DNA from: Candidatus Rokuibacteriota bacterium
GTDB taxonomy: Bacteria > Methylomirabilota > Methylomirabilia > Rokubacteriales > CSP1-6
Length of the DNA stretch: 32,475 bases
Direction of reading: 5' to 3'
Assembly: GCA_003220315.1 (NCBI GenBank)
Contig: QHSA01000138.1
Location: 1-32,475, forward strand
Shown here in pieces: positions 575-8,941 of the stretch; the first letter of the stretch is position 1; each line of letters opens with the position of its first letter. The translations under genes and the position numbers were made by a program. The notes under the pieces were generated by a model. It saw nothing but the letters and a program-made list of their open reading frames with translations. It searched no databases and was not told the DNA's origin.

Positions 575-593
575 GAGAGGTTGCATCCCTCTC
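575..593 (-). promoter_or_regulatory. Hairpin 3' of the riboswitch, possible expression platform
   Basis: On the minus strand GAGAGG, a 7-nt loop and CCTCTC form a 6-bp stem that overlaps the 3' edge of the c-di-GMP aptamer (GGAG of its presumed P1). The arm also contains a Shine-Dalgarno-like GGAGAGGG followed by an ATG (586-584) in the loop, which opens a 68-codon frame ending at 380. There is no U-tract, so translational control or an antiterminator is more likely than a simple terminator. The 68-codon frame has less GC at third positions than neighbouring genes, so I do not call it a gene. Its role is inferred from position only. Confidence 0.35.
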
Positions 594-690
594 CTTCGGC
601 AGCCCGGCTATCAGGTCACTGCGGACCTGACCCGTGGCTTTGCGTCCCCACCTCGCGGTGGGTTTGCCCTTGTCGGGAGGAGTCTCCGCC
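591..690 (-). promoter_or_regulatory. c-di-GMP-I (GEMM-I) riboswitch aptamer
   Basis: Read on the minus strand, the segment carries the GEMM-I consensus in order. GGGCAAACC (669-661) is followed by a 6-bp stem capped by a GCGA (GNRA) tetraloop. Next come GGACGCAAAGCCACGGG, a 7-bp stem (TCAGGTC / GACCTGA), and the closing TAGCCGGGCTGCCG. In this family the tetraloop docks into the second helix and the ligand sits at the three-helix junction. It senses the second messenger c-di-GMP in nascent mRNA. The nearest downstream recognisable gene on this strand is wecB. Transcription from the predicted sigma-54 site would begin a few bases before the aptamer. The aptamer is clear; whether ligand turns expression on or off cannot be read here. 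Confidence 0.93.
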
Positions 691-703
691 GCCTCGGTAC
701 GAA

Positions 704-719
704 AGCATTTGCCGTGCCC
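704..719 (-). promoter_or_regulatory. Predicted sigma-54 (RpoN) promoter upstream of the riboswitch
   Basis: The minus-strand sequence GGGCACGGCAAATGCT matches the -24/-12 consensus TGGCACG-N4-TTGCW at all but two specified positions, with the required GG-N10-GC spacing (GG 718-717, GC 706-705). Twelve bases past the GC, the start would be near G693, just ahead of the aptamer's first helix. That position strongly supports a real promoter. A run of six A/T (about 769-774) and a perfect dyad at 787-799 lie upstream, as usual for sigma-54 control with a bent linker and an enhancer-binding activator. Confidence 0.7.
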
Positions 720-786
720 ATTCCTCTAAGTTAGTGGGGCGGCGTAGTTCCACTGCCGCCGCTGGAGCAAAAAATGCGCGACTGAG

Positions 787-799
787 TGACAGAGTGTCA
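787..799. promoter_or_regulatory. Perfect dyad, candidate enhancer-binding activator site
   Basis: TGACA-GAG-TGTCA is a perfect 5-bp inverted repeat about 95-105 bp upstream of the predicted sigma-54 transcription start. This is the usual distance for an upstream activating sequence bound by an NtrC-type regulator. A second inverted repeat (GGCGGC/GCCGCC, 738-760) lies between it and the promoter. Which activator would bind cannot be told from the window. Confidence 0.4.
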
Positions 800-5414: not shown

Positions 5415-6884
5415 TCAAGAAACGGCCGGCAGGGAGAAGGTCACGCGCGTGCCGGCGCCGACGGCGCTCTCGACACGGATCGTGCCGCCGTGCGCGTCGA
5501 CGAGCGCCTTGACGACGGCGAGCCCGAGCCCCGTACCGCGCACGGCGCCGACGTCGGGCGCCCGATAGTACGGCTCGAAGATGCGCTCGCGCGCCTCGTC
5601 CGGAATCCCCGCGCCACGGTCCAGCACCTCGATCTCGACCATCGCGCCCGCGCGGCGGGCGCAGAGCCGCACCTCGCTGTCGGGCGGCGAGTACTTCACG
5701 GCGTTCGAGACGAGGTTGGCCAGGATGCGCTCGAGCGCATCCGGGTCGGCGTCCACCGGGGGCAGCGCCGACGCGCAGTCCACGACGAGCGTGTCCACGG
5801 CGCCGCGGCGGAACAGATTGGCCGTCGCGGCGAGCGCCGCTTCCACCGCGACCGGCGTGCGGTGGAGCGTCGGCGCGAGGCCACGCTCGAGGCGTGAGAG
5901 ATCGAGCAGGTCGCTCACGATCCGCCCGAGGCGCGCCGCCTCGGCGCCCATGATCCCGGCCATCCGCCGGACCTCTTCGGGCGCGAGCGAGCGCGCGGCG
6001 AGAATCTCGCTGAATCCCTGGAGCGCCGTGAGCGGCGTCCGGAGCTCGTGCGACGCGACGGCGACAAAGACGGACTTCGCCCGGTCCAGCTCCTCGAGAT
6101 GGCGCGTGGCGTTCGCGACCTGCCGTTCGAGCTCGTCGGCGAACCGCCGCGCGCGCGACGTGAGCCGCGCGTTCTCCAGCGCGACCGCGACGTGGGCGCC
6201 GAGCGCCTCGACCGCCGCGCGCTCCTCGCCGCCGAGCTCGCCGACCCGCTCGACGGCGAGGACGCCGATCGGCTGCCCGGCCACGACGAGCGGCGTGGCG
6301 AACACGCGGCGCGGTCGGCTGCCGTCACCCGTGTCGGGCACGAACACCGCTGCCCCACCGGTGAGCACGCGGTCGGCGACGGAGCCGGCCACCACGCGCT
6401 CGGCGGCCGCCGCCACTTCCCGCTCGCCGTCGCGCACGACCAGCCCGACGTCGGCTGCGCCCAGGCGATCGATGAGCACGGCGCGCACCGAGCGAAGCGC
6501 AGCCTCGAGCAGCGTCACGCCCGCCAGCGCCCGCTGGACCGCCAGAATGGTCTCGTACCGCGCCCGCTGCCGGCGCGCGCGTGTCGTGAGCGTACCGCCG
6601 AGGGCGCCGACGCCGGCGACGAGCGCGAACGTCACGAGCCCTTCGATCGTCTCCGGCGTGAGCCCCGAGCGCTCGATCGCGGGAAGCACGACGGAGGCGT
6701 AGAGGACGAGCGTCGCGCCGGCGCTCAGCGCGCCGCCGAGCCCGCCGAACGCGAGCGCCAGCGCGACGACCGGCAGCAGATACACGTGACGGAGCGCCGA
6801 GGCGGGGTCGCCGCCGGCCTGCACGATCAGCGTCGTGACGACGGCCAGGGTCAGCGCCGCGGCGGCGGCGAGCGCGCGCGTCAC
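5415..6884 (-). CDS. Membrane sensor histidine kinase with GAF-like domain
   Basis: 489 residues from GTG 6884, which forms a GTGA overlap with the preceding gene's stop; the open frame extends far upstream, but that part overlaps the neighbour in another frame. Residues 1-100 hold about four hydrophobic segments separated by short loops. A GAF-like region follows (about 115-240, with FATPLVVAGQPIGVLAVER) and a short coiled linker. The HisKA box SHELRTPL has the phospho-acceptor His at 279. The ATPase domain shows the N box (LVSNAVKYSP, Asn394), G1 DRGAG (422-426) and G2 GTGLGL (450-455). All catalytic motifs are intact. It ends the regulator/HD-GYP/CPBP operon, so its likely partner is the receiver encoded at the other end (inference). 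Confidence 0.9.
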   Translation of the reverse strand: MTRALAAAAALTLAVVTTLIVQAGGDPASALRHVYLLPVVALALAFGGLGGALSAGATLVLYASVVLPAIERSGLTPETIEGLVTFALVAGVGALGGTLTTRARRQRARYETILAVQRALAGVTLLEAALRSVRAVLIDRLGAADVGLVVRDGEREVAAAAERVVAGSVADRVLTGGAAVFVPDTGDGSRPRRVFATPLVVAGQPIGVLAVERVGELGGEERAAVEALGAHVAVALENARLTSRARRFADELERQVANATRHLEELDRAKSVFVAVASHELRTPLTALQGFSEILAARSLAPEEVRRMAGIMGAEAARLGRIVSDLLDLSRLERGLAPTLHRTPVAVEAALAATANLFRRGAVDTLVVDCASALPPVDADPDALERILANLVSNAVKYSPPDSEVRLCARRAGAMVEIEVLDRGAGIPDEARERIFEPYYRAPDVGAVRGTGLGLAVVKALVDAHGGTIRVESAVGAGTRVTFSLPAVS

Positions 6885-7690
6885 GCGCCGGTCCCGAGGA
6901 GCCGGTACGCCGCGAAGAAGAGGAGTGCGGCGACGCCACCGGGGACGAGACTCCCCGACCACCAGAAGAGCCAGCAGTTCCCCGCGCTCAGGAGCGTCAG
7001 GTAGAACGCCGCGCCGACGATCCACTCGACGCTCTTCGGGAGGAGCGGGTCGAGGAGATAGCGCACCACGTATGCCGCCGTCGCGAGGAGAAGGCCCGTG
7101 GCGAAGGACCAGCGGCGCTGGGCGCGGTTGAACAGCGCGCCGCGGAAGAAGCACTCCGCGGCCAGCACGTTCGCCCCGACGTCGTAGGCCAGGGCGGCGA
7201 GGACGAGCCCTCCGCGACCGGCCCTCAGGCGCACACCGAGCGTGAGCGAGGCCGACACGAGGAGGTGTCCGCCGAGAAACGCGCCGAGCAGGACGGCGGC
7301 GAGGACCGCTCGGCCCGGGACCGCGCCCGCGAGGCCGAGCGCCGCGAGGCGACCGGACCGCGCGAGCCACGCGACCCACAGAGGCACGAGGAGATAGCCA
7401 AGCGCGCCCGCGGGGTCGAGCGTGGTGGCCACGGCGGCCGCCACGAGGAGGACGATCGCGACGACACCGGACCTCGTGCGACAGCCGGCCCACGCGAGCG
7501 CGGTCGCGAGCAGGGCGCCCTGGCCGGCGGCGACGCCGACCACCCGCAGCGCTCCTGGCGGGAGCGGTATCCGGTCCGCGAGCAGCAGCCCCGCTGCGAC
7601 CGCGCCCGCGAGCGCCACGAGCAGCCGCGTCGGCGTGTCAGCGAGGAGTGGCCGGGTGCCGGGCCGCCAGGGCCGGTCGAGCGCCCACAT
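6881..7690 (-). CDS. Polytopic membrane protein, CPBP (CAAX-type intramembrane protease)-like
   Basis: 269 residues from ATG 7690, giving a 53-bp overlap with the HD-GYP gene; a GTG at 7618 just after that gene's end is an alternative. There are seven to eight hydrophobic segments. AECFFRGALFNR (178-189) resembles the first CPBP motif (EExxxR followed by FRG), although the normal Glu pair is reduced to one Glu. A late GNCWLFWWSGSLVPGG segment occupies the position of the motif that carries conserved polar residues. CPBP proteins include glutamic intramembrane proteases and non-catalytic relatives; with one Glu missing, activity is uncertain. Its place between a phosphodiesterase and a kinase, with overlapping ends on both sides, suggests a role in signal input or a membrane partner of the kinase. 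Confidence 0.65.
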   Translation of the reverse strand: MWALDRPWRPGTRPLLADTPTRLLVALAGAVAAGLLLADRIPLPPGALRVVGVAAGQGALLATALAWAGCRTRSGVVAIVLLVAAAVATTLDPAGALGYLLVPLWVAWLARSGRLAALGLAGAVPGRAVLAAVLLGAFLGGHLLVSASLTLGVRLRAGRGGLVLAALAYDVGANVLAAECFFRGALFNRAQRRWSFATGLLLATAAYVVRYLLDPLLPKSVEWIVGAAFYLTLLSAGNCWLFWWSGSLVPGGVAALLFFAAYRLLGTGA

Positions 7691-8396
7691 GTAGGTCCGC
7701 CGACGGGCGCGCGCCCGCCAGCTCGACAAAGACCGCCACCACGCGCCCGTCGAGCGTCCGGCCGGCCTGCCTCGCCAGGTACTCGAGCGCGGCGTCGCGG
7801 GGCAGCGCTGCGCGGTACGGGCGATCTGAGGTGAGCGCGTCGTAGACATCGGCCACCGCGACGATGCGCGCGCCGACCGGGATCGCCTCGCCCGTGAGGC
7901 CGTCGGGATAGCCGCTGCCGTCGAGGCGCTCGTGGTGGTGACGGATCGTGAGCGCGCCGGCGGCGAAGAACTCGAACGGCGCGACGATCTGGGCGCCGAT
8001 GAGCGGGTGCTTCCGCATCAGCGCCCACTCTGTGTCGTCGAGCTCGCCGCGCTTGCGCAGCACCGCCTCGGGCACGCCGATCTTCCCGATGTCGTGCAGG
8101 AGCCCGGCCTGGCCGACGATCCCGGCCTCGTGCGGCGGGAGACCGAGCGCGACCGCGACGCTCCGACTCGCGGCGCCGACGCGCTCGGAGTGGCCCCGCG
8201 TGTACGCGTCCTTCGCTTCGAGCGCGTTTGCCAGTCCGAGCAGCGACTGATAGATCGCGCGCTGCAGCTGCTGGTACAGCCGCTTGACGTCCTCGGCGTA
8301 GCAGAGGGCTTGCTGGTAGGCGGCGCTGAGCCGGCGGTAGGCCGCCGTCAGGTCGTCGCCGGACGGAAACGCGACGGGCACTAGCCGCGCTGCCAT
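7638..8396 (-). CDS. HD-GYP domain c-di-GMP phosphodiesterase
   Basis: 252 residues from ATG 8396, overlapping the regulator gene by 16 bp. An N-terminal helical region (to about 50) leads into an HD-GYP domain: RGHS with His69, the metal-binding LLHDIGKIG (His101-Asp102), HHHERLDGSGYPDG (153-166, GYP at 162-164), and VADVYDALTSDRPYR (180-195). All canonical residues are present, so hydrolysis of c-di-GMP to pGpG/GMP is likely. Unlike RpfG, the receiver is not fused but encoded by the gene immediately upstream, as if a two-domain RpfG-type protein had been split. The C-terminus (PALAARHPATPR) is coded within the overlap with the membrane-protein gene and is probably unstructured. Confidence 0.92.
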   Translation of the reverse strand: MAARLVPVAFPSGDDLTAAYRRLSAAYQQALCYAEDVKRLYQQLQRAIYQSLLGLANALEAKDAYTRGHSERVGAASRSVAVALGLPPHEAGIVGQAGLLHDIGKIGVPEAVLRKRGELDDTEWALMRKHPLIGAQIVAPFEFFAAGALTIRHHHERLDGSGYPDGLTGEAIPVGARIVAVADVYDALTSDRPYRAALPRDAALEYLARQAGRTLDGRVVAVFVELAGARPSADLHVGARPALAARHPATPR

Positions 8397-8767
8397 ACGA
8401 TGGTGCACGGGAGGAGCGTCTCGATCAGCCCGAGCAGTCTCACCGGCGAGAAGGGCTTCGTCAGATAGTGATCCGCGCCGGCGGCCAGCCCTCGCGTGAC
8501 GTCGTCGGCCTGCGCCGCCGCCGTCAGCATCACGATCTTCATCGAGGCCAAGCGCGGGTCGCGCCGGAGCTGGGCGCAGACCTCCAGACCGCTCATGTCG
8601 GGCAGGTTCACGTCGAGGAGGACCAGGTCGGGCCGGTGGGTCTCGGCGAGAGCGAGGGCCGTCTCGCCGTCGAGCGCCTCCACGACCTGGATCCGCTCGT
8701 CCTCGAGCGTCACCCGCACGAGCTCGACGATGCTGGCCTCGTCGTCGGCGATCAGGATCGTTGGCAT
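8381..8767 (-). CDS. Receiver-only response regulator
   Basis: 128 residues making a single complete receiver domain: acidic pocket Asp8-Asp9 (ILIADDE), phospho-acceptor Asp52 (LVLLDVNLPDMSG), Thr82 (MLTAAAQ) and Lys104 (LTKPFSP). There is no output domain. The gene overlaps the HD-GYP gene by 16 bp, so the pair probably acts as a split RpfG-like module in which phosphorylation of this protein controls the phosphodiesterase (inference). The start ATG (8767-8765) has no clear Shine-Dalgarno sequence and lies within one arm of a perfect 14-bp inverted repeat, which suggests structural control of translation. About 170 nt without a gene separate it from atpC. Confidence 0.92.
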   Translation of the reverse strand: MPTILIADDEASIVELVRVTLEDERIQVVEALDGETALALAETHRPDLVLLDVNLPDMSGLEVCAQLRRDPRLASMKIVMLTAAAQADDVTRGLAAGADHYLTKPFSPVRLLGLIETLLPCTIVWQRG

Positions 8768-8800
8768 CGCGCCCAGTCAGGCGCAAGCGCGATGCCAACG
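8759..8800 (-). promoter_or_regulatory. Perfect 14-bp inverted repeat sequestering the response-regulator start codon
   Basis: CGTTGGCATCGCGC (8759-8772) and its exact complement GCGCGATGCCAACG (8787-8800) flank a 14-nt loop. In the mRNA the 3' arm contains the ATG and the next two codons of the receiver gene, so folding would bury the initiation site in a GC-rich stem. It could be an RNA switch for the regulator/HD-GYP/kinase operon or a binding site for a dimeric protein. There is no T-run after the stem, so it is not a standard terminator. Confidence 0.6.
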
Positions 8801-8941
8801 GGCTGTGGCTCGGGAGGCGCGGAGTTAGCGAACGCGGGTCCGCCAGGCTGCTCAGCGGAGGAGGCGGAGTGCCCTCGCCGCTGGGCAACCGGCCTGGGTG
8901 TGGGTCTGGCCCCTCAGGAGAACGGTGGAGCTCGCCCGGGG

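Follow-up and report, generated by a model that had tools for sequence, protein, structure and literature searches.

Riboswitches are usually studied apart from promoters, whereas the system described here ties one promoter class to one riboswitch class throughout a phylum. When the leaders in question are compared with the closest described systems, the likeness to the c-di-GMP-I (GEMM-I) riboswitches, RF01051/RF03167, extends to the sequence, structure and pocket bases of the aptamer. The best-known Vibrio switch of this kind, Vc2, is described as an ON switch (PMC12564702), which counts against the OFF sign proposed below. Cd1 is turned OFF by c-di-GMP and the Geobacter pilM switch is turned ON by cGAMP, both acting by means of terminators, and in both, as in our leaders, formation of helix P1 rivals a downstream alternative helix (PMC9262584). 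The present leaders differ from these two in having no U-run terminator, in holding the Shine-Dalgarno (SD) sequence within the expression platform, and in swapping the 5' P strand, lengthened by the transcript start. The transcript's own 5' end would be a switching strand, which sets these leaders apart from the known c-di-GMP-I switches.

Other systems share the promoter or the targets. The PEP-CTERM box, together with PrsR/PrsK, combines sigma-54 sites and an upstream activator motif ahead of genes of secreted surface proteins (PMC1569441); our loci likewise combine sigma-54 with an upstream motif, the difference being that no riboswitch is described there (PMC1569441). Membership in the PEP-CTERM/PrsR system itself was considered and rejected: the best TIGR02915 match in the genome scores 444.6 bits against a cut-off of 502.6 bits, and none of the genome's proteins passes. 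In Geobacter, GEMM riboswitches are found upstream of genes for FNIII proteins and cytochromes, so that part of the target class, the Fn3-domain surface proteins, is the same, and in the available portions of these reports no sigma-54 promoter is linked with the Geobacter switches (PMC13194489, PMC2700814). BerB of Burkholderia, as far as the available part of the report goes, connects c-di-GMP with sigma-54 control when biofilms are formed, with a protein as the c-di-GMP effector, whereas the candidate sensor in our system is an RNA leader (PMC5552954). A literature search covering few subscription journals retrieved no paper that links a sigma-54 promoter with a c-di-GMP riboswitch as a rule; the parts are known, and their combination is apparently unreported.

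The aptamer and its predicted ligand

The window, i.e., the whole analyzed stretch of 32,475 bases from a Candidatus Rokuibacteriota bacterium, contains on its minus strand, read from right to left, a dyad, an A/T run, a -24/-12 element, a transcription start, an aptamer, an SD sequence and an ATG codon. The observation made in the preliminary description, namely, promoter, aptamer and dyad in this order, is confirmed as a whole. The aptamer matches the covariance model RF03167 (c-di-GMP-I-GGC) at 677-594 (minus strand; cmscan, 77.7 bits, E 4.8e-17, gathering score 59) and the model RF01051 (c-di-GMP-I) at 678-595 (74.5 bits, gathering score 35). Hence, both Rfam models bear out the earlier identification of a GEMM-I aptamer, and only its extent, given as 591-690, was slightly too wide. 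At what may be the site behind the GGC label, the Rfam consensus has GACGCGAAG and the window has GACGCAAAG.

The binding pocket of the window aptamer retains the G, the AAA and the C that we take, in Vc2 numbering, to be G20, A47 and C92. Among the 114 aptamers compared, G20 and C92 are invariant and AAA at positions 46-48 is present in 104. Because these bases are kept, the ligand is expected to be c-di-GMP and not cGAMP, and the window aptamer is predicted to bind c-di-GMP. An identity as a 3',3'-cGAMP riboswitch (GEMM-Ib), which needs A at position 20, was rejected, with G at this position in all 114 aptamers. The genome contains six c-di-GMP-I aptamers, and that of the window is intact and gives the highest-scoring RF03167 match.

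A sigma-54 promoter tied to the riboswitch

The promoter element, GGGCACGGCAAATGCT, is located at 719-704 on the minus strand. Its GG and GC are intact and canonically spaced, and the two mismatches to TGGCACGNNNNTTGCW both fall at less conserved positions; the usual first T is missing. Described earlier as near-consensus, the element turns out to be the best match in the window, and elsewhere in the 32,475 bases neither strand offers a site with fewer than three mismatches. The transcription start proposed earlier, at about 693 and just before the aptamer, agrees with the consensus spacing, being 12 nt past the C of the -12 GC, and is a predicted position.

Far stronger than this single locus are the comparative data. 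In the genome itself, each of the six aptamers is preceded by a -24/-12 element at a distance of 24-31 nt. In the window's family, where 35 of 57 genomes carry c-di-GMP-I aptamers, the element precedes, on the correct strand, 85 of the 93 aptamers with sufficient upstream sequence and is absent from the other 8, the loci being mutually related, so that these counts are not independent. Using a weight matrix taken from the known consensus and not trained on these loci, the element was found in only 5% of cases on the reverse strand and in 3% in the region 300-380 nt upstream; under a stricter cut-off, the comparison is 81% versus 0% in the control. The distance between element and aptamer is narrowly distributed (median 27 nt, interquartile range 24-29), and 32 of 33 family genomes possess at least one such pair.

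These data also bear on the possibility that the -24/-12 match is incidental and that the aptamer RNA is made from a sigma-70 promoter farther upstream. The two mismatches could be taken to point in this direction, as could the ease with which partial matches arise by chance in GC-rich DNA, the window having 11 sites with no more than three mismatches. Nevertheless, given that the element is locked in position in 85 of 93 loci, as opposed to 3-5% in the controls, that it is the best of the entire window, and that no sigma-70-like site was found within 1-1100, this explanation appears very improbable.

The collection includes 95 genomes of the phylum, 50 of them with aptamers. In the sister families, outside the window's own, the element is found at 13 of 19 aptamers, including one in a 2,752,854-base genome that we take to be Methylomirabilis oxyfera. 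Nearly every copy in the Methylomirabilota has the element. Of the 16 copies sampled outside the phylum, from seven genomes (Vibrio, Moorellales, Bacillus, Sideroxydans, Neiella, Fusibacter and Acidobacteria), none has it; one of these 16 has an upstream score of 7.0, yet with neither GG nor GC. Judging from these sequence comparisons, the sigma-54 promoter combined with a c-di-GMP-I aptamer is a phylum-wide design, in support of the two-layer control by a promoter stacked on a riboswitch that the preliminary description had suggested for the single locus. A separate search of 84,980 genomes with the loose pattern TGGCAC-N5-TGC plus GGGCAAACC yielded, among the matches listed, 0 real aptamers out of 119 on inspection.

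Upstream of the promoter, the dyad TGACAGAGTGTCA at 787-799, reported earlier as perfect, is indeed an exact match and the only one in the window with no more than one mismatch, 0.26 being expected. It is a plausible candidate site for an activator protein. In the related loci, TGTCAC/TGACAC hexamers are enriched upstream (33 loci versus 8.8 expected), and TGTCA/TGACA half-sites gather 100-160 nt upstream of position -26 (57 of 83); the window dyad, some 68-80 nt upstream of -26, is closer than those of the relatives. The A-run noted earlier is located at 769-774 (minus strand; a T-run on the transcribed strand). Related loci have a box resembling GATTTCC/AATTTCC at a distance of 40-60 nt upstream from -26, exclusively on the same strand (20 of 24 occurrences), and the corresponding place in the window, 759-779, is where this A/T run lies.

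The genome encodes RpoN (PF04552, 203 bits) and has about 20 matches to sigma-54 AAA+ activators and 9 to GGDEF proteins, so that both control inputs exist. On contig 291 of the genome denoted G000, positions 37439-38939 hold a gene for a sigma-54 activator and a separate receiver gene, approximately 1-2.5 kb upstream of a riboswitch, and these are candidates for the activator of that riboswitch.

Competing helices and the predicted direction of switching

The predicted transcript's 5' end and the first P1 strand, taken as one stretch (673-689 in the window, minus strand), are complementary to a segment preceding the SD sequence (556-576), which includes the anti-SD stretch 568-557. In 41 of 63 loci, this complementarity lies at the 5% level of shuffled sequences or below it; for the window's own helix, p is 0.14, which is not significant individually. 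The central five bases covary: loci with TCTCG have CGAGA (7) or, with a G-U pair, CGGGA (10), those with TCCCG have CGGGA (20), and those with TTCCG have CGGAA (10), crossed combinations being almost absent. In Methylomirabilis leaders, an alternative helix of other sequence is formed by GAAGGTT..CTTTCCGA and TCGGAAAG..AACCTTC. P1 and the alternative helix make use of a common strand, and the segment preceding the SD doubles as an anti-SD. Compared with its shuffles, the SD hairpin has the higher stability (mean z of -1.85, as compared to -0.27 for a coding control), and in an alignment of 36 leaders GGTGGTCTTCC precedes GGAnGACCACC, the conserved hairpin including the SD itself. These conserved competing pairings, like the aptamer identity and the position and conservation of the promoter, are direct results of the computation.

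According to folding energies of the RNA alone, with proteins and pausing left out, the alternative helix is, on average, 4.6 kcal/mol more favorable than P1 before the SD has been transcribed, and P1 together with the SD hairpin is favored over the alternative helix by a mean of 2.0 kcal/mol in the full leader (38 loci). With the alternative helix enforced in the calculation, so that the result is partly built in, the probability of an unpaired SD is 0.59, as compared to 0.14 with P1; in 35 of 38 leaders the alternative helix leaves the SD clearly more open, and in none clearly less so. The window leader behaves in the same manner: the alternative helix is favored by 3.8 kcal/mol before the SD, and the SD (GGAGG, 551-547) has an unpaired probability of 0.00 with P1 closed and 0.84 with the alternative helix. 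When P1 was merely forbidden, the effect on the SD was not clear. Since the SD stays paired in the unconstrained full-length fold, the ON state has to be explained by folding during transcription or on kinetic grounds. RNAalifold applied to the concatenated leader recovered the extended P1 only and not the downstream competition.

Taken together, the folding energetics predict a translational OFF switch, a sign that is computed only. What we infer is that the ligand is bound, that the promoter is used, that the switch has this sign and that it acts on translation rather than transcription; the resulting device would have two layers. Transcription would proceed from the sigma-54 promoter only and would have to be licensed by an activated enhancer-binding protein bound upstream; the resulting RNA would start some 10-20 nt ahead of the c-di-GMP-I aptamer. 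In the absence of c-di-GMP, the 5' end would pair with the pre-SD segment, leaving the ribosome site open, whereas, in its presence, P1 would close and the freed pre-SD segment would pair with the SD, blocking translation. We assign to this scheme, sigma-54 licensing of transcription followed by c-di-GMP shut-off of translation, a probability of approximately 0.6.

The same two layers could operate with c-di-GMP as an ON signal if the ligand-bound leader kept its 5' end on the anti-SD segment beyond the closed P1, in which case surface proteins and pilins would rise with c-di-GMP. For adhesins and pili, induction by c-di-GMP is the usual case. The P1-enforced fold does retain pairing between the 5' end and the anti-SD in some leaders (L241, as well as the window's P1 fold before the SD), and the ON sign is also that of Vc2 and of the Geobacter pilM switch (PMC12564702, PMC9262584). 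Given, however, that in nearly all leaders the alternative helix lowers SD pairing, with no clear reverse case, and that the P1 strand and the strand of the alternative helix are one and the same, we consider the ON sign rather unlikely.

Still less probable, in our estimate, is that the leader acts by transcription termination, intrinsic or Rho-dependent, instead of SD sequestration. There are GC-rich hairpins between the aptamer and the gene, and termination is the mode of action of Cd1 and pilM (PMC9262584). No intrinsic terminator, i.e., a terminator-like site with a U-run, was found in 1-1100, however, and the conserved hairpin contains the SD; the lack of such a terminator points to control of translation rather than transcription.

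Returning to sigma-54 licensing with c-di-GMP shut-off, we think it probable on balance that, in the Methylomirabilota, nearly every c-di-GMP-I riboswitch has co-evolved with a sigma-54 promoter, that the 5' end fixed by sigma-54 serves as the switching strand, and that an external signal, delivered via enhancer-binding proteins, is combined with c-di-GMP separately for each gene of a surface protein, pilin or response regulator. The conserved spacing and the start of the switching strand at the transcription start make this rule directly testable, and the promoter-riboswitch pair offers a natural two-input gate for study, in a phylum of soil bacteria, largely uncultured, and of nitrite-dependent methane oxidizers that has almost no genetics.

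The gene under predicted control in the window

The preliminary description named wecB as the downstream gene. A gene of the UDP-N-acetylglucosamine 2-epimerase family is present (Epimerase_2, E 4.9e-8; minus strand, 306-1, the first 102 codons, after which the gene runs off the contig), but the view that it is the gene controlled is not supported. The ribosome site within the expression platform (551-547) serves the ATG at 540, the start codon under riboswitch control; both SD and ATG, 234 nt ahead of the wecB start at 306, were absent from that description. The ATG opens an ORF of 42 codons (540-412, minus strand; GC3 0.72), for which there is no Pfam match and no homologue among the relatives' genes, and the similarity to the nearest relative leaders (L164, L136) ends near the start codon. 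Judged by its sequence, this ORF is probably a gene remnant. The wecB gene starts 105 nt past its end, and, with no intrinsic terminator in between, read-through is possible; control of wecB by the riboswitch would be an inference from position only. A search for the remainder of wecB across the contig break found nothing beyond the window's contig.

It is a serious possibility, albeit one that we rate somewhat below even, that the window copy is a relic in which the gene of a secreted protein has decayed to the 42-codon ORF, leaving promoter and riboswitch without a meaningful target next to an unrelated wecB. This explanation concerns the single copy in the window and is compatible with two-layer control for the class. 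It would account for an ORF with neither homologue nor, past the leader, similarity to the relatives' genes, and for its GC3; the missing first T of the -24/-12 element, the dyad placed nearer than in relatives, and the identity of only 36-46% with WecB relatives within the genus also fit. Conversely, the aptamer is intact and scores best in its genome, the SD and the leader structure are intact as well, and no terminator separates the riboswitch from wecB. The window locus belongs, perhaps as a decayed copy, to a two-layer device that spans the clade and is built of known parts.

Targets in related genomes

Control of wecB, the polysaccharide gene of the initial reading, is not supported by the relatives: for 80 proteins encoded downstream of related switches, the 25 most frequently matched families include none that is WecB-like. 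These proteins match, instead, Fn3 (23), choice-of-anchor D (17), Big_7 (13), response-regulator receiver (9), beta-helix (4), PilZ (2), glycosyltransferase (2) and pilin N-methyl (2) families. The genes controlled in the relatives encode, for the most part, Fn3/Ig-like secreted proteins, pilins or response regulators, and two independent controls, one over the start of the message and the other over its reading, appear to stand ahead of genes for surface proteins and pili. In this way, a likely c-di-GMP regulon can be named, comprising Fn3/Ig-like surface proteins, pilins, PilZ and glycosyltransferase proteins, and response regulators.

Several individual loci deserve mention. At L182 and L192, the promoter-riboswitch pair stands ahead of related large membrane proteins, to which the two PilZ and two glycosyltransferase (cellulose-synthase-like) matches among the 80 probably belong. 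Short response regulators with a single receiver follow the pair at L193, L194, L212, L219, L228, L230 and L245, suggesting a feedback or relay layer. L251 and L252, near-identical loci of a riboswitch and a secreted protein at contig ends of the genome, are a recent duplication with diverged upstream regions. Within the window, 7638-8888 encodes an HD-GYP domain (HDIG, HHERLDGSGYP), likely that of a c-di-GMP phosphodiesterase, adjoining a GAF-histidine kinase at 5415-7493; since a receiver domain lies in another frame (8438-8758), the HD-GYP gene may be frameshifted.
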